NCBI RefSeq assembly: GCF_007744515.1
Contig: NZ_CP036268.1
Span: forward strand, 758,482 to 822,481
Direction of reading: 5' to 3'
DNA length: 64,000 nucleotides
Source of the DNA: Stratiformator vulcanicus
Lineage (GTDB): Bacteria > Planctomycetota > Planctomycetia > Planctomycetales > Planctomycetaceae
The notes below the pieces were generated by a model that was not told where the DNA came from, made no database searches, and was given only the letters and a program-made list of their open reading frames with translations. The translations under genes and the position numbers were made by a program. Below are positions 42,384 to 52,672 of the stretch, one piece after another (the first letter of the stretch is position 1; each line of letters begins with the position of its first letter).

Positions 42384-43373
42384 ATGATGCTGCGTCAGTT
42401 CCTGACATCATCGACCATCGCCGCCGCGGTCGTCTTGACCACCGCCGGCTCTGTCGCCTTCGCCCAGGCCAAGGTTGATCCGAAGCTGCCGGAATATAAG
42501 CCGGTTCCGGGTATTTCCGGTACGATTTCGACCGCCGGTTCCGACACGATGGCGAATCTCGCCACCTACTGGACCGAGGGTTTTCTGAAGTTTTACCCGA
42601 ACGTCAAAGTCGACAGCGAAGCGAAAGGGTCGAGCACCGCACCCCCGGCTCTGACCGAAAGCAAAATCAACTTCGGCATGATGAGTCGCCCGCCGAAGGA
42701 AGCGGAAATGTCCGCCTTCGCCAAGAAGAAAGGCTATAAGCCGACGGTTCTGAACTCGAGCATCGACATGCTTGCCGTCTTCGTTCACAAGGACAACCCG
42801 GTCGACGCCCTGTCGCTGCCGCAACTCGATGCGATCTTCTCTAAGACCCGCAAGCTCGGCCACAGTGATGACATCACGATCTGGAGTCAGGCTGGGGTCG
42901 ACGGACCTCTCGCTCGTCGGAAGATCAGCCTCTACGGACGCAACGCCGCCTCGGGCACCTACGGTTACTTCAAAGACGTGGCGTTGGGCGACGGTGATTT
43001 TAAAGACATCGTGAAAGAACAAGCCGGCAGCGCCTCGGTCGTGCAGGGCATCGCCGGTGACAAGGCGGGGATCGGCTACAGTGGCATCGGTTACAAGACG
43101 CCGGGCGTGAAAGCGATCGCGGTTGCCCCATCGGCCGGTGGGGAAGCGCTCGAGCCGATCGAAGAAAACGTCTACAGCGGCAAGTACCCCTTATTCCGCT
43201 TTCTGAATCTGATCGTCGACAAGCAGCCGAACAAGGATCTCGATCCGCTGCGTCGTGAATTCGTTAAGTACATCTTCAGCAAGCAGGGGCAGGAAGCCGT
43301 CGTCAAAGATGACTACTTCCCCGTGCCCGCCGTCTTCGCCAAGCGGCAGTTGAAGAGCGTCGGGATTGAGTAA
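42384..43373 (+). CDS. pstS: Phosphate ABC transporter substrate-binding protein
   Basis: The 329-residue periplasmic phosphate-binding protein has a signal peptide ending near SVAFAQA. The Gly-Ser-Asp-Thr patch TISTAGSDTMANL (near 50) and SEAKGSSTAPPAL form the first part of the phosphate pocket. A GRNAASGTYGYF segment (near 190) is the conserved R-x-x-x-S-G-T phosphate site of PstS/SphX-type proteins. Ribosome site ggaga precedes the ATG. No Pho box is evident in the 270-base leader. It is followed by pstC after 232 bases, which include a 9-bp hairpin. Binds phosphate for the PstC/PstA/PstB transporter. Confidence 0.92.
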   Translation: MMLRQFLTSSTIAAAVVLTTAGSVAFAQAKVDPKLPEYKPVPGISGTISTAGSDTMANLATYWTEGFLKFYPNVKVDSEAKGSSTAPPALTESKINFGMMSRPPKEAEMSAFAKKKGYKPTVLNSSIDMLAVFVHKDNPVDALSLPQLDAIFSKTRKLGHSDDITIWSQAGVDGPLARRKISLYGRNAASGTYGYFKDVALGDGDFKDIVKEQAGSASVVQGIAGDKAGIGYSGIGYKTPGVKAIAVAPSAGGEALEPIEENVYSGKYPLFRFLNLIVDKQPNKDLDPLRREFVKYIFSKQGQEAVVKDDYFPVPAVFAKRQLKSVGIE

Positions 43374-43605: not shown

Positions 43606-46317
43606 ATGCACTCGGTCCGGGCTGATCGACCAGAGACTATGGCAGAGAAAACTTCCGCATTTACCGGCCGGAAACGACAGCTCAGCACGCGCCGCACGGT
43701 CAAATTTGCGGACCAATTCGCCGCGTCGGTCATCACCGTGGGCGGCATCGGGACGATCGGTGCCGTCTTTCTCGTCGGCGTGTTGCTGGTTTGGGAAGTG
43801 GTCCCTCTTTTTCAGCCGGCTGAAATCACTCCAGTCGCTCTCCCGCAGACAGACTCCTCACTCGACGTCAGTCGCGGGTTCCGCGTTGACGAGTACGACG
43901 TGATCGGCTGGGGGGCCGGCGAAGACGGGTCAATCACCAGTTTTTCGACGCGCACCGGGGAATCGATCAGCACGCGCAGCGTCGTTTCAACGCAGGATGA
44001 CGGCCGAGATGTCACCGCGTTCTCGATCGCCTTTGATCAGCCTGACATCGCGTTCGGATTTGCGGACGGTAGCGTCGTTACCGGACTAGCGGCCTTCAAA
44101 ACCGATTTTCTCGAAGCTGAGTCGGTGCCTGAAGAGGTTCGGTCTCTCGCGACGAATCAAACCCGAATCTATGACGGCGGAATTGTTGAAGTCACCCCGC
44201 GAGGGCAATTTCGAGTGCAACGGGTCGAGTTCGATCTCCCCGACGAACCGCTCGACGTTGCCGATTCGCCGGTGACGTTGATCGACGTCGTGGGAACGTC
44301 AAGCGGCCCGGTCGTGGCCGTCTGGTCGGAAGAGCGACGGCTGCTCCTGTTCCGCATTAAGCAGTCGGAAAACATCTTCACGGGAGAAGTCACGTCGGAA
44401 CCGGCCGATCAAGTCGAGTTGCCGGTCGATGGCGCCCCAACGTCACAACCGAACTTCCTGCTGATGGGCGAGTCGGGATCGCGTTTGTATTTGATTTGGG
44501 AAGACGGGACGCTGTTTCGGTATTCGCTCGACGATTCGAGAAAATGGTATCTCGCCGAGAGCTTGAAGGTCGTGCCGGCGGGGCGCACCGTGACCAGCGT
44601 GAAGCTTGCCGCCGGTCGAACGACGCTGTTGATCGGCGATTCCGAAGGCGACCTCACGGGTTGGTTCCCCGTCCGCGATACGCCCGACTTCGCCGGTACG
44701 AATCGGCCGGTCGAAGACGAAACCGAAACAGTCTTGCCGGATGACGGCTACCTGCTGACGCGGGCTCACGAATACGGCCGAGGTCCGACCGAGGCGGCCG
44801 TGTCGGGATTGGGTCCCTCGCCTCGAGATCGCACCGTCGCCGTCGGCTACGCCGACGGTTCACTGAGCCTGATTCAGACGACCAACGAACGGCGCATGGT
44901 CGACTTCGTTCGCGACGGCCCTCCCGCGAAGCACCTCGCGCTGACGCCGCAGGCGGAGCGATCGTCGATTTACGGCGTGTCCGAAGATCACGATCTGTTT
45001 CGGGGCAAAGTCGAAATCGGTCATCCCGCCGCGAGTCTCGCCGGACTCTTTGCGCCCATTTGGTATGAGGGATACGCGGCACCCGCGAGCGTGTGGCAGT
45101 CGACGTCGGCCAGCGACGCGACCGAACCGAAGTTCGGCCTCGGCCCGATCATCTTCGGGACGCTCAAGGCCACGTTTTACTCGATGCTGTTTGGCGCGCC
45201 GCTCGCGCTGATGGCCGCGATCTATACCAGTGAAATTATGCCGTCGCGTTGGCGTCCGGCGATCAAGCCGACGATCGAAAACATGGCCAGCTTGCCGAGT
45301 GTCGTCCTCGGTTATGTCGCGGCCATTGTGATCGCTCCGTACGTCGAGAAGTGGCTGCCGATGATTCTGCTCGTCCCGTTCATCGTGCCGCTGGCGTTGT
45401 TGACTGGTGCCTACCTGTGGCAGATGCTCCCGGTCCGCGTCGCGCTGCGGCTTGAGAATGGTCGCATGTTTTTCGCTGCGGTGACGGCCTTGGCCGGCGT
45501 GTTCGCAGCCTACCTGTTGGGGCCGATCGTTGAAGACGTGTTGTTTCGAGGAAACATCCTGCTCTGGTTCTCGGAACGAAAAGGGAGCGGAATCGGCGGT
45601 TGGTTTTTGATCCTGACGCCACTGGTCACGCTGGTCGTCGCGTTGCTGGCCCGAACATTCGTGACGCCTATTTTGATTAACGCTACAAGAAACTGGTCCC
45701 GTTCTGCCTGCACGGCAGCGGACTTGGGCAAGTTCGCTGTCGCCGGGCTGATCGTGCTCGCCGGAACGTACTTACTTTCATGGGCGCTCATTCAATTCGG
45801 ATCGCTGACCGGCCTCGACCTCGACCCGAGGAATTCGCTGATCGGCAGCTTCGATCAGCGAAATGCGTTCATCGTCGGTTTCGTGATGGGATTCGCGATC
45901 ATCCCGATCATCTTCACACTCGCGGACGACGCCCTGATGTCCGTCCCGCAGCAATTGCGCTCGGCCTCGTTGGGTTCGGGGGCGACCCCCTGGCAGACCG
46001 CCATGAGAGTGGTTCTGCCCACGGCGATGAGCGGTTTGTTTTCCGCACTCATGGTGGGCCTGGGACGCGCCGTCGGTGAGACGATGATCGTGCTGATGGC
46101 CGCGGGTAACACGCCGATCCTTGATTTCAATATCTTCAACGGCTTTCGCACGCTCTCGGCGAACATCGCCGTTGAGCTTCCTGAAGCCGTCAAAGGGAGC
46201 ACGCACTTTCGGATTCTGTTCCTGTGCGCCCTGCTGCTGTTCATCCTGACCTTCATCGTCAACACCGTCGCGGAAATCGTACGCATTCGGTTCCGCAAAC
46301 GCGCGTCTCAGCTATGA
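43606..46317 (+). CDS. pstC: Phosphate ABC transporter permease PstC with inserted beta-propeller
   Basis: The frame has 903 residues, about three times a usual PstC. The ATG at 43606 has GGGAG close by; an ATG at 43639 is also possible. Helix 1 (about 38-70) is followed by ~430 residues of beta-rich sequence with propeller-like blades (VVAVWSEERRLLLFRI, RLYLIWEDGTLFRYSLD, LLIGDSEGDLTGWF, AVGYADGSLSLIQ). These should fold outside the membrane. The permease proper starts near 507 (FGLGPIIFGTLKATFYSML) and includes a coupling loop (LRSASLGSGATPWQTAMRVVLP) and GRAVGETMIVLMAAGN, the PstC/PstA signature. The stop overlaps the pstA start (ATGA). Forms the phosphate channel with PstA. Confidence 0.88.
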   Translation: MHSVRADRPETMAEKTSAFTGRKRQLSTRRTVKFADQFAASVITVGGIGTIGAVFLVGVLLVWEVVPLFQPAEITPVALPQTDSSLDVSRGFRVDEYDVIGWGAGEDGSITSFSTRTGESISTRSVVSTQDDGRDVTAFSIAFDQPDIAFGFADGSVVTGLAAFKTDFLEAESVPEEVRSLATNQTRIYDGGIVEVTPRGQFRVQRVEFDLPDEPLDVADSPVTLIDVVGTSSGPVVAVWSEERRLLLFRIKQSENIFTGEVTSEPADQVELPVDGAPTSQPNFLLMGESGSRLYLIWEDGTLFRYSLDDSRKWYLAESLKVVPAGRTVTSVKLAAGRTTLLIGDSEGDLTGWFPVRDTPDFAGTNRPVEDETETVLPDDGYLLTRAHEYGRGPTEAAVSGLGPSPRDRTVAVGYADGSLSLIQTTNERRMVDFVRDGPPAKHLALTPQAERSSIYGVSEDHDLFRGKVEIGHPAASLAGLFAPIWYEGYAAPASVWQSTSASDATEPKFGLGPIIFGTLKATFYSMLFGAPLALMAAIYTSEIMPSRWRPAIKPTIENMASLPSVVLGYVAAIVIAPYVEKWLPMILLVPFIVPLALLTGAYLWQMLPVRVALRLENGRMFFAAVTALAGVFAAYLLGPIVEDVLFRGNILLWFSERKGSGIGGWFLILTPLVTLVVALLARTFVTPILINATRNWSRSACTAADLGKFAVAGLIVLAGTYLLSWALIQFGSLTGLDLDPRNSLIGSFDQRNAFIVGFVMGFAIIPIIFTLADDALMSVPQQLRSASLGSGATPWQTAMRVVLPTAMSGLFSALMVGLGRAVGETMIVLMAAGNTPILDFNIFNGFRTLSANIAVELPEAVKGSTHFRILFLCALLLFILTFIVNTVAEIVRIRFRKRASQL

Positions 46318-48860
46318 GCGAACCCACCCCCCAAAGTCCCGATCACGGTGAGCGTTCAGCCCGAACGGTCCGACGCGATCCGAAAGGTCGCCCGGGACCT
46401 TTTTCGGCCATGGCTGCTCGTAATGAGCCGATGCTTTGGTTGTGCAGTGGCGCGCTCATTGCCTGCCTCGCGATGATTTTGCTGCTGCTGGCAAAGATCA
46501 TCTACGAAGGTGCCCGCACGTTTTGGCCCGGTCGCATCGAGGCGATCACCGTCTACATGCCGGAGGATGGCCAGCCGCACGAGTTACTGGGCGAAACCGT
46601 CGACCAGTCCACATTCATACTGACGCGAGACTTTGCCAAAGGGCTGCCGGCCGCGACCCAAGCCGTCGCGATGGAGTTGCTCGGCAAGGAAGATCAGGCC
46701 CGCATTTCGCAGACGCTGATCCGCGTCGACAATAAAGACGTGACCGGAAGTCCTTACCGATATGTCCGGGAATTCGAGATTGTCGATGGGTCGACCAGTA
46801 CTCCCGAATGGGCGGTTGTCGCGGAGCGATACTCGTGGGGCAGGCTGATCGGAATCCCAATCGCATTTGAAGCGCGGTTCGAACGTCAACCTTCCGCGGA
46901 TGAGGAGCAGTTGCAACAACTCGCGGCGTTTATTGACGGCAACGTCTATCGTCTCGACGAGCAGCAGCAGGCGACCCTCTCCGAAATCGGCGAGTCGCTG
47001 CGAGATCGGTTGGCAGCGCTTCGGGTCGAAAACTCGAAGTCATTTCTTGACCAATATGCGGCCAAGACCGGTGCTGAGGCCGAACTGTCCGCAGTCGTTG
47101 ACGGCGGCGATCCCCTCCCTCTTGCTGAATTACCTGAAGGATCGACGGTCGATGCGATCATTAAATCGACAAACGGGTCCGCTGAGGCGTGGGAGCGTTT
47201 TTCGGTACTGCACGACTCAATCGCCGAGCGAGTTCATGAGCAGAAGCGACTGGGGAAATTCGAGATCGGCGAACTCAGCCAGGAAACCGAAGCCGCTCGC
47301 CAGGAGGTTCTCGACGCGGAACGCGAAACCGGTCAGCGGGCCGACGCAATTCGGGGCGAGGCGGTCGAGAAGATTGTGTTCCTCGACGCACTCGAAGACT
47401 CGATGGAGAGCAACGACCAACTCGCCTCCGCATTCACAAGACGATTTGGCGAGTCACGCCCGCAGGCCGCAGCGGCGTTTTCGAAGTTGGCTAAAGAAGC
47501 GAACGACGAAGTCGAAGCAGCCGCCGAGCCGGTGCGGGCCGAGTTGAAAGAATTGTTGGCATCGCTGACCGGCGAAGCACGCCGAGCCGTTGATAGCTAT
47601 TTGGAGACTGAGAAACGGCTAAAGTTTCCCAACGAGGAGATCGTTCAGAAGATCGAATCGTTGAAACAGATGAACGAGCCGTACGCTCTCGTATTTGAGA
47701 TAGCTGGAGGTCCGGGCGTGCCCGAAACGGTTTCCGCTCCGATCGCGGAAATCATCAGGGCCTATCCTGCGAATCAACTTACGACGCAGGGGCGGGCCGG
47801 CGTTTATTTTTCTCGTTGGGGTGAGTTCCTGACGACCGAGCCCCGCGAAGCGAATACCGAGGGCGGGGTTCTTCCGGCGATCTGGGGGACGGTCGCGATG
47901 ACGCTCGTCATGACGATCGCGGTCGTTCCGTTCGGCGTACTCGCGGCACTGTATCTCCGCGAATACGCGAAGGGCGGCGTGATCGTCAGCATCATTCGCA
48001 TCGCAGTCAACAATCTCGCGGGCGTGCCAAGCATCGTGTTCGGCGTGTTCGGGCTGGGCTTCCTGATCTACACGATCGGCTCATTTATCGACGGTGGACC
48101 GAAAGAAATCGGATTGCGTCCATGGAGTGGGCCGATTTGGATCGGGGTACTCCTCGCTTGGGCTGTGATTTTCGCGGGCGGCGTGGGGTTATGGTTCAGC
48201 GTCCTTCGCGCCAGTTGGCAGAGTGCCGGTTGGACCCAGCGTGCGATTCTGTGCGGCGTGATCGGTGTCTGGGCGACTGCCGTATTCGGTGGATTGTTTG
48301 TGATTCTCGGGCACGTGCCGTTTTTCGACGGGTTCTTTCGAGCCAGTCCAAGCCCCGTCTTCGGTGGCGGCGGCGTTCTCTGGGCCTCGTTGACGCTGGC
48401 ACTGCTGACTCTGCCTGTCGTGATCGTGGCGACCGAAGAGGCGCTCTCAGCCGTCCCCAATACAATGCGAGAGGGTTCATACGCGTGCGGCGCCAGCAAA
48501 TGGCAAACGATCAAGAAAATTGTTCTGCCGCGGGCCTTGCCCGGCATTCTGACCGGAACAATTCTCGCCGTCGCGCGAGGAGCCGGCGAAGTCGCGCCGC
48601 TGATGCTCGTCGGAGCGGTCAAGTACGCACCGGAACTGCCGATCGATACCGAGCCGCCGTTCCTCCACGTCGAACGACGGTTTATGCATCTCGGCTATCA
48701 TATATTCGACGTCGGAATGCTCAGTCCCGATGTCGAAGCCGCCAAACCGATGGTCTTTACGACGACGCTGTTACTAATCACCCTGGTCGCTTTACTCAAC
48801 GTGGCGGCGATCTGGCTCCGCAGTAAATTAAGGGCTAAGTTCAAAGGCAATTCGTTTTAA
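46314..48860 (+). CDS. pstA: Phosphate ABC transporter permease PstA with large periplasmic insertion
   Basis: The protein has 848 residues from the ATG that overlaps the pstC stop (ATGA); an upstream frame to 46224 was dropped. Helix 1 (about 40-62) leads to an extracytoplasmic region of ~450 residues with coiled-coil-like helices rich in Glu and Ala (for example IGELSQETEAARQEVLDAERE, FSKLAKEANDEVEAAAEPV). The permease domain starts near 520 (GGVLPAIWGTVAMTLVMTIAVVP). It contains the EAA-type loop (TMREGSYACGASKWQTIKKIVLP) and GTILAVARGAGEVAPLMLVGAV. PstA is normally ~280-300 residues. The ATGA overlap implies translation coupled to pstC. Confidence 0.88.
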   Translation: MSEPTPQSPDHGERSARTVRRDPKGRPGPFSAMAARNEPMLWLCSGALIACLAMILLLLAKIIYEGARTFWPGRIEAITVYMPEDGQPHELLGETVDQSTFILTRDFAKGLPAATQAVAMELLGKEDQARISQTLIRVDNKDVTGSPYRYVREFEIVDGSTSTPEWAVVAERYSWGRLIGIPIAFEARFERQPSADEEQLQQLAAFIDGNVYRLDEQQQATLSEIGESLRDRLAALRVENSKSFLDQYAAKTGAEAELSAVVDGGDPLPLAELPEGSTVDAIIKSTNGSAEAWERFSVLHDSIAERVHEQKRLGKFEIGELSQETEAARQEVLDAERETGQRADAIRGEAVEKIVFLDALEDSMESNDQLASAFTRRFGESRPQAAAAFSKLAKEANDEVEAAAEPVRAELKELLASLTGEARRAVDSYLETEKRLKFPNEEIVQKIESLKQMNEPYALVFEIAGGPGVPETVSAPIAEIIRAYPANQLTTQGRAGVYFSRWGEFLTTEPREANTEGGVLPAIWGTVAMTLVMTIAVVPFGVLAALYLREYAKGGVIVSIIRIAVNNLAGVPSIVFGVFGLGFLIYTIGSFIDGGPKEIGLRPWSGPIWIGVLLAWAVIFAGGVGLWFSVLRASWQSAGWTQRAILCGVIGVWATAVFGGLFVILGHVPFFDGFFRASPSPVFGGGGVLWASLTLALLTLPVVIVATEEALSAVPNTMREGSYACGASKWQTIKKIVLPRALPGILTGTILAVARGAGEVAPLMLVGAVKYAPELPIDTEPPFLHVERRFMHLGYHIFDVGMLSPDVEAAKPMVFTTTLLLITLVALLNVAAIWLRSKLRAKFKGNSF

Positions 48861-48912: not shown

Positions 48913-48988
48913 AAATTTCGTCGATAGCTCGCATTAAACCGAAGCCGCCTCCGACCGAACCCGATTCCACCTAGTGATTGTTAGATCG

Positions 48989-49921
48989 ATGGCACAACCG
49001 AATTTTGGTTCCGAACTTCGTTCCCCGGCTGACGGCATGGGTGCCGGGCTGCTCGGCGGTGGTCCGGCCGTTTCTGATGACCAGTCCAATGACCCGCAGT
49101 CGCGGCTGGAGGCGATCGAACGGGGCGAATCGTTTCCCGCCGACGTGCATCGCGCCACGCTTGAGGAAACACACGTCCTCGATATCGAGGAGTTCAATTT
49201 ATGGTACGGCGAGAAAAAAGCCCTGTTCGATGTCTCGATGGGCATCGCACTGAATAAGGTGACCGCCCTGATCGGGCCGTCCGGTTGCGGTAAGAGTACG
49301 TTGCTTCGATGCGTTAATCGGATGAATGACTTGCTCGACAACGTGCGTATTGAAGGCCAAATGAAGCTCAACGGAGACTCGATCTACGACCCCGCCGTCG
49401 ATGTGATCGAGTTGCGAAAACGAATGGGCATGGTGTTTCAAAAGCCGAATCCCTTCCCGATGAGTATTTTTGAAAACGTCGTTTACCCCCTGCGAATCGA
49501 TGGGGAACGACGGCGATCACTTTTGGAAGAAGTGTGCGAACGCAGTTTGCGCGGAGCGGCGCTTTGGGACGAAGTGAAAGACCGGCTTAAAGAGAGTGCC
49601 CTTGGTCTTTCGGGCGGACAACAGCAGCGGCTGTGCATTGCGCGGGCGATCGCCGCGGAGCCGGAAGTTCTACTGTTGGACGAACCCTGCTCCGCACTTG
49701 ATCCGGTCGCGACGGGGAAAATTGAAGATCTCATTCAGGAACTGCGCGGCGAGTATTCGATTCTCATCGTGACTCACAACATGCAGCAGGCGTCTCGCAT
49801 CAGCGATTACACCGCGTTTATGTACTTGGGCCGCATGATGGAATATGGCCCGACGGCCGATATTTTTACCGCCCCGCACTTGCCCGAGACAACCGCCTAC
49901 GTCACCGGTCGATTCGGCTGA
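48989..49921 (+). CDS. pstB: Phosphate ABC transporter ATP-binding protein
   Basis: The protein has 310 residues from the ATG at 48989; an in-frame GTG at 48974 would add five. An N-terminal extension of about 60 residues ([19 protein letters not shown] and following) precedes the ATPase core. Walker [10 protein letters not shown] (about 96-104), the Q-loop region [15 protein letters not shown], the signature [15 protein letters not shown], Walker [14 protein letters not shown] and the H-loop [16 protein letters not shown] are all present. It drives phosphate import through PstC/PstA. phoU, often next, is missing; the gene faces sixA with a pair of hairpins between. Confidence 0.95.
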
Positions 49922-49928
49922 TGATTGC

Positions 49929-49969
49929 CGACGATAAAAATCGTCGATTCGATAAAAATATCTATCGAA
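49929..49969. terminator. Two hairpins between convergent pstB and sixA
   Basis: Hairpin 1: cgacgat (49929-49935) with atcgtcg (49940-49946) over an AAAA loop. Hairpin 2: ttcgata (49948-49954) with tatcgaa (49963-49969). Both can form on either strand, as expected of a bidirectional end between converging operons. A-rich and T-rich loops replace a classic T-tail. Hairpin 2 overlaps the last codons of sixA. Confidence 0.55.
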
Positions 49970-50510
49970 GGTCTTTTGGAGTCCAAAGCTGCTCGAGCTG
50001 ACCGACTCCCACCACATTGTCGCCGGCGACTTCTTCGCCCCGCTGAAACTCAGCCCATGCGGCCACAGGCAGCGTGACATGCGCGATGGCCGCGGTGGGT
50101 AAATGGCAGGCTTGGCCGGTCAGCACGGTGACAAGGTTCTCCAGACCGGGGTTGTGGGCAATCAGAAGTACCCGCCGGGCCACGCCCCCTTCGGCCGCAA
50201 TCGTATTAACGTGTGTCGTCCAGTCAGCGAGATAAAGGTCCTCAAGATATCGGACCTCAGGCTCATGATCTTCGACTTCGCGAAGCGTGTTTAAGAATAA
50301 TTCGGTTGTCTCTCGCGTCCGCTTCGAAGTCGATGACAGAACCAGGTCCGGCAGGAGCCCGGCCTGCGCGAGCTGCCGGGCCATGAGCGGAGCCTCCCGT
50401 CGGCCGCGGTCCTTCAGCGGGCGATCGAAATCAGAAAGCGTCTCATCGTCCCGCGAAGCTTTCGCGTGCCGCATGATCAACCATTCGAGGTCGGCGGTGT
50501 CGTCCGACAT
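49962..50510 (-). CDS. sixA: SixA-type phosphohistidine phosphatase
   Basis: The 182-residue histidine phosphatase (phosphoglycerate mutase-like fold) carries the catalytic LIMRHAKAS (His15, Arg14) and the second histidine in LIAHNPGLE near residue 120. SixA removes phosphate from histidines of phosphotransfer proteins. The family pattern LKDRGRREAPLMARQL, LVLSSTSKRTRETTEL also fits. It lies two bases downstream of ppk on the same strand, so it should be co-translated. In this context it may act on phosphate-related phosphohistidine; the substrate is unknown. A general histidine phosphatase (cobC/gpm type) is less likely given the RHAKA motif. Confidence 0.85.
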   Translation of the reverse strand: MSDDTADLEWLIMRHAKASRDDETLSDFDRPLKDRGRREAPLMARQLAQAGLLPDLVLSSTSKRTRETTELFLNTLREVEDHEPEVRYLEDLYLADWTTHVNTIAAEGGVARRVLLIAHNPGLENLVTVLTGQACHLPTAAIAHVTLPVAAWAEFQRGEEVAGDNVVGVGQLEQLWTPKDLR

Positions 50511-50512
50511 GC

Positions 50513-52672
50513 TTAATTCTCCGCCGCACGGTAAGGCTCGAAGACCGTGCGACGTGCCTGCTCGGTTTCTCGCATTCGTTCGACAGCCTGATCATTTAAG
50601 ATCGCTTGGCTTCGAATGGGGTCGCCCTCGCTCTTGACTCGCTCATACTCGCCGTTGGAGAGAAGTCGTCGGCTCTTGACGTTCTCTTTGAAATACAAAT
50701 CAAGAATTCGTGAGAGGCGTTTGCGGTGCGTTCGCCGCTCGACGGGTACGAGTAATTCGACCCGGCGATCAAGATTCCGCGGCATCCAATCGGCGCTGGA
50801 AATATAAAATAACTCATCGCCGCCATGATGAAACTGCAGAATGCGAGCGTGTTCCAGGTACCGATCGATAATGCTGACGACGCGGATATTCTCGCTCAGA
50901 CCGGGAATTCCGGGCCGGAGGCAGCACACACCGCGAACGTTGAGATCGACTTTGACCCCCGCCGTCGATGCTTCGTAAAGGGCATCGATCAACTCCGGGT
51001 CGACGACGGCGTTGAGTTTCACGCGAATGCGGGCCTTGAGTCCTTGACGGGCCCGATGCGTTTCCGCCTCGATTAATTCGCGAACCCGATCCCGCAGGCC
51101 CAACGGCGCCGCTTCCAACTTGCGAAATTGCTGTGGCTGGGAATAACCGGTGATGGCGTTAAAGAAACTGATCGCATCGGCGGCCAGGTCGTCGTTGCAT
51201 GTCAGCAGGCTCGCGTCGCTGTAAATCCTCGCAGTCTTCTCATTGTAGTTGCCGGTGCCGAAGTGCAGGTAACGTCGGATGCCCGCCGGTTCGCGACGGA
51301 CGACCACGCAGACTTTCGCGTGAGTTTTTAAGCCGCGCACGCCGTAGACGACCTGCACACCGGCGCGCTCCAAATCTTCGGCCCGAGCGATATTTCGCTC
51401 TTCGTCGAATCGGGCTTTCAATTCAACGATCGCCGTGACTGCTTTACCCGCTTCGGCAGCGAGGGCCAGTGCGGCGACGATTGGGCTGTTGCGGCTGGTC
51501 CGGTAAAGAGTTTGTTTAATCGCGAGAACGTCAGGATCGGCCGCGGCCTCTTCGATAAAGCGGACGACCGGCGAGAAGCTTTCGTAAGGATGGTAAAGCA
51601 AAACGTCGCCATCGGCGATTGTCTCGAAAATTGACCGGGTCGGGTCAATCGCGGGTGAGGGATGCGAGGTCCAGTCCGGATATCTCAAGTGGCCGAATCC
51701 GCGTTGCTCGGCCACCGGGAAGAACGCGGAGAGATCGAGCGGGCCCGGGATCTTTAATACATCGGCCGAGTCGACGCGGAGACCGGCCTGCAGGAACTCG
51801 ACGAGCTCTTCGCTTGCGTTGTCTTCGATCTCCAGCCTGACACAATGGCTTTCTTTTCGAGCCTCAAGGACTCCGCGCATCTCACCGAGGAGGTCCGAGG
51901 CGGCGTCCTCACGCACGCTCAGATCGGCGTCGAGCGTGACCCGAAATGCCACGACTTCGACGACGGGTGTCCCCGCAAAAAACCGCTCAACAAACATCCG
52001 CACGGCGTCTTCAAGCAGAATAAAAGAGTATCCCCCGTCGGAGGGCACTGTAATGACGCGTGAGCCGGCAGTCCCAAAAGGAATAATGGCATACCGAGTC
52101 TGTGGCTCGGTCGACGGCGGTTCGGCCGGGTCATTCGGTTCGTCGGTCGGGCGGTCTCTGAATGGGCGATTGGGATCAACCGAGAGTTTCACGCACAGAT
52201 TCATCGTCCCGCCGGTCGGTCGCGGGAACGGTGCTTCGTCGACGACCGCCATTGGTGTGTAAACGCCGTAAATCTCGTTCGAGAACAATCGCTCCAGAAC
52301 TCGCGACTGATCGGGATTGGCGTTGTTGTGATCGACTCGCGTGAGTCTCGACTCCGCGAGCAATTTCATTAAGCTGTCGAACAAGCCGTATTGATCGCGG
52401 GTCATCTCCGCAACGCGTTCGCGAATGGCCGAGAGTTGTTCGGAAGGAGTCATGCCGCTCGGGTCGCGCTTCGCAACGCCGCTGTGGGCGAGTTGCTGCA
52501 ACCCGCCGACCCGAACTTTATAAAACTCGTCGAGGTTGGACGACGTGATCGCCAGAAATTTTAATTGCTCCAACGGCGGCACTTCGCCGTCAGCTGCTTC
52601 ATCGAGCACGCGCTGATTGAACTCGAGCCAACTCAGCTCTCGATTCAAGTATCGTTTTTCCTCAGTCGCCAT
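50513..52672 (-). CDS. ppk: Polyphosphate kinase 1
   Basis: The 719-residue protein is Ppk1, which reversibly moves the gamma phosphate of ATP onto polyphosphate chains. N-terminal helices include ELSWLEFNQRVLDEA, a conserved family opening. The catalytic phospholipase D-like domains hold KTHAKVCVVVR (autophosphorylated histidine) and HFGTGNYNEKTA; the second histidine lies in EHARILQFHHGG. The C-terminus carries ISSADWMPRNLDRRVELLVP. Start chosen at the ATG giving EEKRYLNRELSWLEFN. It lies 119 bases after ppx on the same strand and two bases before sixA, so ppx, ppk and sixA form a polyphosphate operon converging on pstSCAB. Confidence 0.95.
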   Translation of the reverse strand: MATEEKRYLNRELSWLEFNQRVLDEAADGEVPPLEQLKFLAITSSNLDEFYKVRVGGLQQLAHSGVAKRDPSGMTPSEQLSAIRERVAEMTRDQYGLFDSLMKLLAESRLTRVDHNNANPDQSRVLERLFSNEIYGVYTPMAVVDEAPFPRPTGGTMNLCVKLSVDPNRPFRDRPTDEPNDPAEPPSTEPQTRYAIIPFGTAGSRVITVPSDGGYSFILLEDAVRMFVERFFAGTPVVEVVAFRVTLDADLSVREDAASDLLGEMRGVLEARKESHCVRLEIEDNASEELVEFLQAGLRVDSADVLKIPGPLDLSAFFPVAEQRGFGHLRYPDWTSHPSPAIDPTRSIFETIADGDVLLYHPYESFSPVVRFIEEAAADPDVLAIKQTLYRTSRNSPIVAALALAAEAGKAVTAIVELKARFDEERNIARAEDLERAGVQVVYGVRGLKTHAKVCVVVRREPAGIRRYLHFGTGNYNEKTARIYSDASLLTCNDDLAADAISFFNAITGYSQPQQFRKLEAAPLGLRDRVRELIEAETHRARQGLKARIRVKLNAVVDPELIDALYEASTAGVKVDLNVRGVCCLRPGIPGLSENIRVVSIIDRYLEHARILQFHHGGDELFYISSADWMPRNLDRRVELLVPVERRTHRKRLSRILDLYFKENVKSRRLLSNGEYERVKSEGDPIRSQAILNDQAVERMRETEQARRTVFEPYRAAEN

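Follow-up and report, generated by a model that had tools for sequence, protein, structure and literature searches.

A long class of the phosphate permease subunit PstC with a predicted WD40-like propeller between its first two helices

Introduction

The textbook model of the Pst phosphate importer is that of Escherichia coli, whose permeases are small; the route by which phosphate is reported from Pst to PhoR is still debated. One proposal (PMC5775613) is that the conformation of E. coli PstSCAB signals to PhoR through PhoU. Phosphate permeases with extra domains are on record; according to PMC3597751, the Pfam domains DUF3708 and DUF3333 occur beside BPD_transp_1 and are prevalent in Alphaproteobacteria. 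A long PstC of Pseudomonas aeruginosa is likewise already in the databases, and a copy in Aeromonas caviae is unannotated. The class is easily overlooked because the P. aeruginosa protein bears only the generic name "ABC transporter permease subunit". Here we analyze the long PstC encoded in a stretch of 64,000 nucleotides (the window) from the planctomycete Stratiformator vulcanicus (NZ_CP036268.1, positions 758,482 to 822,481). An original prediction, made from the sequence alone, had placed a beta-propeller of about 430 residues between its first helix and the permease. We found no description of such a propeller in Pfam, in NCBIfam or in the titles and abstract openings returned by searches of open-access literature, although one paper among the matches, PMC11596576, contains both "PstC" and "propeller"; subscription and preprint literature lay outside this search.

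A compact propeller follows the first helix of PstC

The reading frame at 43606-46317 of the window is open across 903 codons. It has the following parts:

43606 to 46317, plus strand: pstC of the long class, 903 aa, ATG start (TIGR02138, tree, operon position)
43693 to 43812, plus strand: helix 1, residues 30-69 (AlphaFold2, charge count)
43822 to 45015, plus strand: predicted WD40-like seven-bladed beta-propeller, residues 73-470, most likely periplasmic (AlphaFold2, Foldseek, VIA, WD40-type matches of relatives)
45016 to 45141, plus strand: conserved linker, residues 471-512, joining the propeller to helix 2 (alignment consensus)
45142 to 45354, plus strand: permease helices 2-3 with a PSVVLG stretch, residues 513-583 (model, alignment)
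45355 to 45840, plus strand: second insertion, four extra helices by our count, about residues 584-745 (model, alignment)
45841 to 46314, plus strand: C-terminal half of the permease with the EAA-type coupling loop, residues 746-903 (PF00528, phmmer)

A 19-residue hydropathy scan of PstC detected one segment at 51-69 and none after it before residue 560; the AlphaFold2 model places helix 2 at 513-544. This model, built from an alignment of 31 sequences including that of the window, has a mean pLDDT of 83.3 and a pTM of 0.78. Residues 73-470 are predicted to be mostly beta strand, and in ten-residue blocks of 71-470 the pLDDT ranges from 76 to 96, except for 361-370 (44) and 371-380 (60). In our reading the predicted strands make up seven blades, each four-stranded, and the ring is closed in the last blade by 73-77.

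The best solved matches in Foldseek were WD40 propellers, e.g. G-beta and eIF3i (E 2.1e-10 to 2.4e-9 among the best 50 matches). In VIA-align 2 the top match covered 293 residues (Z 25.9, 3.4 Å); Ciao1 (3fm0), Ski8 (1sq9) and eIF3i (3zwl) followed the domain over 310-320 residues at 3.7-4.0 Å (Z 25.5-25.7). The predicted domain thus has the closed ring of a WD40-like propeller and matches solved propellers over its entire length. A compact domain directly after the first helix, as originally predicted, is therefore present in the model. Its size is nearer 400 residues than 430, since 471-512 are a separate linker. The shared fold by itself shows no function.

Profile searches of relatives add independent, sub-threshold evidence of this fold. 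No Pfam or NCBIfam model scored above its cut-off in the insert. WD40-type Pfam matches were below threshold in three relatives (locus L048, E 1.6e-8; L033, 1.7e-5; Aeromonas, 7.6e-5) and reached E 0.003 at best in the window protein; the annotated long PstC of P. aeruginosa had none at E 0.1. For the WD40 repeat model PF00400, L033 and L048 had sub-threshold matches and the window protein had none (E up to 1).

The propeller is poorly conserved. In an alignment of 46 long PstC the mean majority fraction was 0.37, as compared to 0.67 in the linker and 0.78 in the C-terminal half of the permease. Only 21 of 398 propeller columns are at least 80% identical, and nine of these are Gly. No invariant polar cluster was seen in this alignment, and an enzyme-like propeller was rejected on that ground. 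The linker has the consensus HPE....LF..VWYEGY..P..VWQS...DDFEP. The permease itself, whose signature had been described as intact, matches TIGR02138 at E 1.4e-54; it is not otherwise normal, because the second insertion of about 160 residues lies inside it.

The propeller is most likely periplasmic

Residues 1-35 of PstC contain nine K/R and three D/E, and in 44 of the 46 long PstC, counting that of the window, the stretch ahead of helix 1 is richer in K+R than the one behind it. Going back to the N-terminus from the EAA-type loop at about 779-800, we counted eight membrane helices in the model, an even number: 30-69, 513-544, 565-582, 584-607, 617-647, 663-693, 699-735 and 751-778. The treatment of 565-582 and 584-607 as two helices is our reading. 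The EAA-type loop is cytoplasmic in such permeases. The charge bias and the even helix count both suggest that the N-terminus is inside, and the propeller is therefore most likely outside the inner membrane, where PstS works and where the original prediction had put it. In the alignment the propeller takes the position of the loop between helices 1 and 2 of E. coli PstC. Residues 75-495 are free of Cys, which also favours a periplasmic location.

A cytoplasmic propeller would be in keeping with the top solved matches, which are eukaryotic intracellular WD40 proteins. It would, however, go against the charge bias, the helix parity and the correspondence to the E. coli loop, and we regard it as highly improbable.

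One locus speaks against the proposed topology. L021:480-4049 (minus strand), from a fragmented genome, holds an apparent single in-frame PstS-PstC frame of 1190 aa. This is hard to reconcile with an N-terminus inside unless it reflects an assembly error or an internal PstC start; in L012, from a genus-mate, pstS and pstC are separate, so an assembly error in L021 is possible. At L068:1393-3798 (plus strand) the annotated start of P. aeruginosa PstC (677 aa) omits helix 1, which an upstream in-frame ATG would include.

The protein is the PstC of a complete pst operon

The other operon features are:

42384 to 43373, plus strand: pstS, phosphate-binding protein, 329 aa (PF12849, TIGR02136, identity to long-operon PstS)
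46314 to 48860, plus strand: pstA of the long class, 848 aa (TIGR00974, AlphaFold2 model)
46524 to 47834, plus strand: insert of PstA, residues about 71-507, predicted alpha/beta base with long helical hairpins at 289-454, probably periplasmic (AlphaFold2)
48974 to 49921, plus strand: pstB, ATPase subunit, 315 aa from the predicted start (PF00005, 103.6 bits)

The gene order pstS-pstC-pstA-pstB puts pstC between pstS and pstA, as expected, and the start of pstA overlaps the stop of pstC as ATGA. PstS scores 113.3 bits with PF12849 and 218.0 bits with TIGR02136 (cut-off 206.6), PstA 229.0 bits with TIGR00974 (cut-off 193.45). PstC itself reaches 185.2 bits with TIGR02138, which is under the curated cut-off of 196.45, a naming threshold set on 296 positions and not a biological feature. 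The annotated P. aeruginosa long PstC is also below it (191.8) and that of Aeromonas above it (209.4). PF00528 gave 25.7 bits, just below its cut-off of 26.4. We read these sub-cut-off scores as the result of models being split by the insertions.

A phmmer search connected the protein with E. coli PstC (9k3s_B, 4.5e-22), and in the tree it groups with PstC and not with the paralogue PstA (67 PstC versus 10 PstA sequences, SH-aLRT 100). It is the sole PstC detected in its genome (G000), where all three TIGR02138 matches at E 1e-15 or better fall on the pstC and pstA of this operon. Judged by its sequence, the protein serves as PstC in a phosphate importer of the PstSCAB type and belongs to a distinct long class; phosphate transport is its predicted function. 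The size of about 300 residues given for a normal PstC agrees with E. coli (319 aa) and with short PstC in the window's own family, whose frames mostly span 300-360 codons.

Long PstC proteins are widespread and form one clade

The insert was searched with a profile of the 46-sequence alignment, many members of which come from the window's phylum, so that it is tuned to that phylum. Within the phylum, the insert occurs in 130 of 294 genomes; of the 155 better genomes, 78 carry it. Some of these matches are partial, e.g. in G059, where the match is confined to the linker end. The alignment of 45 homologues and this count argue against chance, a genome-specific oddity or a frame or assembly artefact, and they bear out the earlier view that the insert is in frame and no fusion artefact. 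In the window's own family it is a minority form: 1 of 17 genomes carries it in the phylum sample and, by our reading, 13 of 61 in the family search, a short PstC being the rule in the remainder. Of 199 genomes from the phylum of G346, only G346 itself has the insert. The named carriers include a Phycisphaerae metagenome-assembled genome (MAG), which is the nearest named relative, a Krumholzibacteriia MAG, bacterium RSA8, P. aeruginosa and A. caviae; the last two are the only long PstC among 96 matching records of a plasmid collection. The Krumholzibacteriia sequence falls among those of the window's phylum in the tree, and a binning error is possible.

The window insert shares 24% identity with those of P. 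aeruginosa (E 8e-23) and Aeromonas (E 1e-24), which indicates that the gammaproteobacterial long PstC proteins are homologous to it. The window protein has all the traits of the class, i.e. a homologous insert between helices 1 and 2, the WYEGY/VWQS linker, membership of the single clade, a long PstA and the same class of PstS. By these sequence comparisons the long PstC is a widespread class, with members in Planctomycetota and Pseudomonadota at the least, and not a peculiarity of this genome.

All 46 long PstC lie on one side of a branch that separates them from 21 short PstC and 10 PstA (SH-aLRT 100; 226 permease columns, both insertions excluded), and FastTree agrees (support 1.000). Since the 46 were chosen for carrying the propeller, losses are invisible in this tree, which comes from a short search without bootstrap and has several long-branched outgroup sequences. 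The result points to one origin of the class. Four long PstA included in the tree also group together (support 95). A recent acquisition from a distant phylum is unsupported, as L063, L065, L066 and L067 from the same family share a subclade of 26 sequences with the window (support 89, below the starred level; the inner branching is mostly open). A candidate stand-alone propeller gene in G258 proved to belong to a tandem duplicate, which comprises pstS and a shortened pstC. L094 has a tandem pstS and truncated pstC (391-codon frame) adjoining an intact pst operon, with a PhoU-like frame after pstB.

The class of PstS follows the long permeases

Identity to the window PstS was 50-63% for 41 PstS frames of long operons (P. 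aeruginosa 52%) versus 27-31% for 16 from short operons; among the 41, one locus appears twice (as L033 and L093), L094 contributes a tandem pair, and the frames of L048, L050-L052 and L060 are partial. In another eight short loci nothing matched the window PstS at E 1e-3. Three of these, L035 (E. coli), L036 and L037, include more than 1.3 kb of upstream sequence, and L098 and L101-L104 at most 0.9 kb before PstC. At equal permease divergence the PstS medians for long and short operons were 57.3/50.7, 60.8/52.0 and 64.4/56.5 in three bins, i.e. long-operon PstS are 6.6-8.8 points more alike; the weight of this contrast is lowered by the fact that the pairs, from 28 long and 19 short loci, are not independent.

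PstS is encoded beside pstC in 34 of 35 long loci with at least 1.1 kb of upstream sequence (one locus counted twice). The exception is A. caviae (L069), which has no pstS within 4.7 kb upstream of pstC-pstA-pstB. Its pstS lies about 480 kb from pstC on the same record, yet it is of the long class (50.5% identity to the window PstS). This record, NZ_AP026896.1, is 4.94 Mb long and labelled a plasmid. Among 40 PstS records of the plasmid collection the best matches were P. aeruginosa (52.0%) and Aeromonas (50.5%), both of them long-PstC records. These data suggest that PstS belongs to the unit of the long operon, even where the genes are unlinked.

PstA carries its own insert

The insert of PstA, about 430 residues, follows the first helix, the same position as the propeller in PstC. 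It is well predicted (pLDDT 84-98 in each ten-residue block of 71-500), the permease part of the model less so (blocks of 38-83). Its long helices, at 289-339, 343-378, 383-416 and 420-454, measure 34-51 residues. With the whole PstA model, Foldseek at E <= 0.001 returned only E. coli PstA and PstC (four matches), which cover the permease part. Among the best 50 VIA matches two were confined to the insert; these are helical (Z 8.6-8.7). DUF3333 scored only 12.2 bits near helix 1 (cut-off 26.5).

PstA of relatives ranges from 517 to 1090 aa with our choice of starts, and many lack the central helical part, hence the variable length. A long PstA accompanies the long PstC in 30 of 31 loci; the exception, L067, shows no PstA within its examined stretch. 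By our reading, all 13 genomes of the own family with a long PstC also have a long PstA-type frame, 11 of them on the same contig. In a short-PstC operon of this family, L102:1785-3245 (minus strand), helix 1 of PstA is followed by a pair that resembles EF-hands (PF13405 below its cut-off, E 1.1e-4).

Directly after pstB in the window, 49962-52672 on the minus strand holds a histidine-phosphatase gene, which we take to be SixA-like, and a polyphosphate kinase gene.

Possible role of the periplasmic domains

Our preferred reading, which we hold tentatively and with about as much doubt as belief, is that the PstC propeller and the extra domain of PstA together cradle, on the periplasmic side, the class of PstS that goes with them. 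The two domains would both face the periplasm and flank the mouth of the transporter, where they might capture and orient PstS. Phosphate would then move from PstS to the permease in the usual way, powered by ATP hydrolysis at PstB. The propeller would act as a protein-binding scaffold and be neither an enzyme nor a phosphate-binding site; such a role suits it because so few of its columns are conserved, many of them Gly. Sensing, presenting or gating of phosphate, the roles originally suggested for it, are conjectural. The cradle is supported by the PstS class, which tracks the long permeases even where it is unlinked, by the pairing of long PstC with long PstA, by the single clade of long PstC and by the weaker contrast seen for the cytoplasmic PstB.

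Several points weigh against a cradle. The PstS pattern may reflect mere common descent of the transporter. The cytoplasmic PstB leans the same way, with overlap and a weaker contrast (56-77% identity in long operons, 65% in P. aeruginosa, versus 50-61% in short ones, 54% in E. coli). An Alteromonas macleodii plasmid encodes a PstS of this class (46.6%) but no long PstC on that record, the plasmid alone having been searched; the next plasmid matches are at 34% or less among the 30 listed. Nor does a propeller of such low conservation hint at a fixed surface for binding PstS, and short-class Pst importers work without such a domain. In some short-PstC operons, too, helix 1 of PstA is followed by domains or long loops; in the own family these loops are in some cases well over 100 residues by our reading, and the PstA gene of a Haloferax short-PstC operon has 1,623 bases. 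Because of such enlarged PstA proteins the periplasmic additions need not imply a shared role. Finally, the cradle is drawn from separate models of the subunits, and the contact with PstS is putative.

The main rival, which we consider unlikely, is a signalling domain: the propeller would sense a periplasmic cue or touch PhoR and so report the state of the transporter to the Pho system. The proposed signalling of E. coli PstSCAB through PhoU and PhoR is consistent with this, as is the phoU in the P. aeruginosa operon. S. vulcanicus has a phoU as well, adjoined by genes for a kinase and a regulator that we read from their translations as PhoR-like and PhoB-like, but it lies outside the pst operon, about 1.07 Mb away. 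In this stretch (L072, G000:C1:1873500-1882500) the kinase has a segment between two helices, according to our reading of the translations. Also against signalling, the propeller shows no evident invariant polar cluster, and the short Pst system of E. coli signals without any propeller-type domain. Unlikely to the same degree is an envelope tether, in which the importer would be held below a phosphate channel through binding of the propeller and the PstA hairpins to peptidoglycan or to a porin or lipoprotein of the outer membrane. Propellers commonly bind proteins, PstA helices of 34-51 residues could reach far, and the absence of the central helical part from many PstA fits a span of variable length. 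However, PstC, PstA and the scanned neighbours have no peptidoglycan-binding Pfam match (more distant partner genes were not sought), and a tether does not explain the separation of the PstS classes.

It is also conceivable that the propeller is a structural decoration with little function of its own, serving e.g. the stability or assembly of the long permease. Its low conservation would agree with this, but we find it quite improbable: the domain occurs in two phyla at least, plus the Krumholzibacteriia MAG, and the sole partial copy inspected is the remnant of a tandem duplicate, although 46 sequences chosen for their propeller cannot show losses. An extension of the cradle is that the PstC propeller and the PstA hairpin domain make up a built-in periplasmic vestibule, which encloses a dedicated PstS and acts as gate or signal relay, so that, in contrast to E. 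coli, control of phosphate hand-over and Pho signalling would lie outside the membrane. We put this forward as a rather unlikely idea. If the two domains do shape the docking of PstS or signalling, the E. coli model would not be transferable to Pseudomonas-type and planctomycete-type systems. The propeller is a simple domain that is open to testing by deletion.

Comparison with known systems

The closest systems are those of P. aeruginosa (WP_003123734.1) and A. caviae (NZ_AP026896.1), which have the same insertion point, a homologous insert and linker, a long PstA and the same class of PstS. The P. aeruginosa operon has the same gene order, plus phoU after pstB; in Aeromonas, unlike in the window, pstS is not beside pstC. 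Their inserts have about 380 residues versus 437 in the window over an equal span. Both lack window residues 658-748 and thus have two of the four extra helices, and their PstA proteins are shorter (558 and 549 aa versus 848).

E. coli PstSCAB (9k3s, 9k3x, 9k3y) shares the permease core of PstC (29.8% identity over the core columns). Its PstC and PstA (319 and 296 aa) are without the propeller, the extra helices and the PstA domain, and its PstS has no match with the window PstS at E 1e-3. DUF3708 and DUF3333 are likewise extra domains of phosphate permeases; DUF3708 has no match in the window PstC at E up to 1. The propellers of Ciao1, Ski8 and eIF3i have the same fold, but they belong to intracellular eukaryotic proteins and are only 11-13% identical. 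The maltose transporter MalFGK2 offers an analogy of how the domain might work, with no homology claimed. There a periplasmic domain between permease helices, MalF P2, meets the binding protein MalE; P2 is inserted at a different point among the helices, and its fold is not that of a propeller. Taken together, we regard the S. vulcanicus system as a variant within the known Pst transporters and not as a separate kind of transporter.

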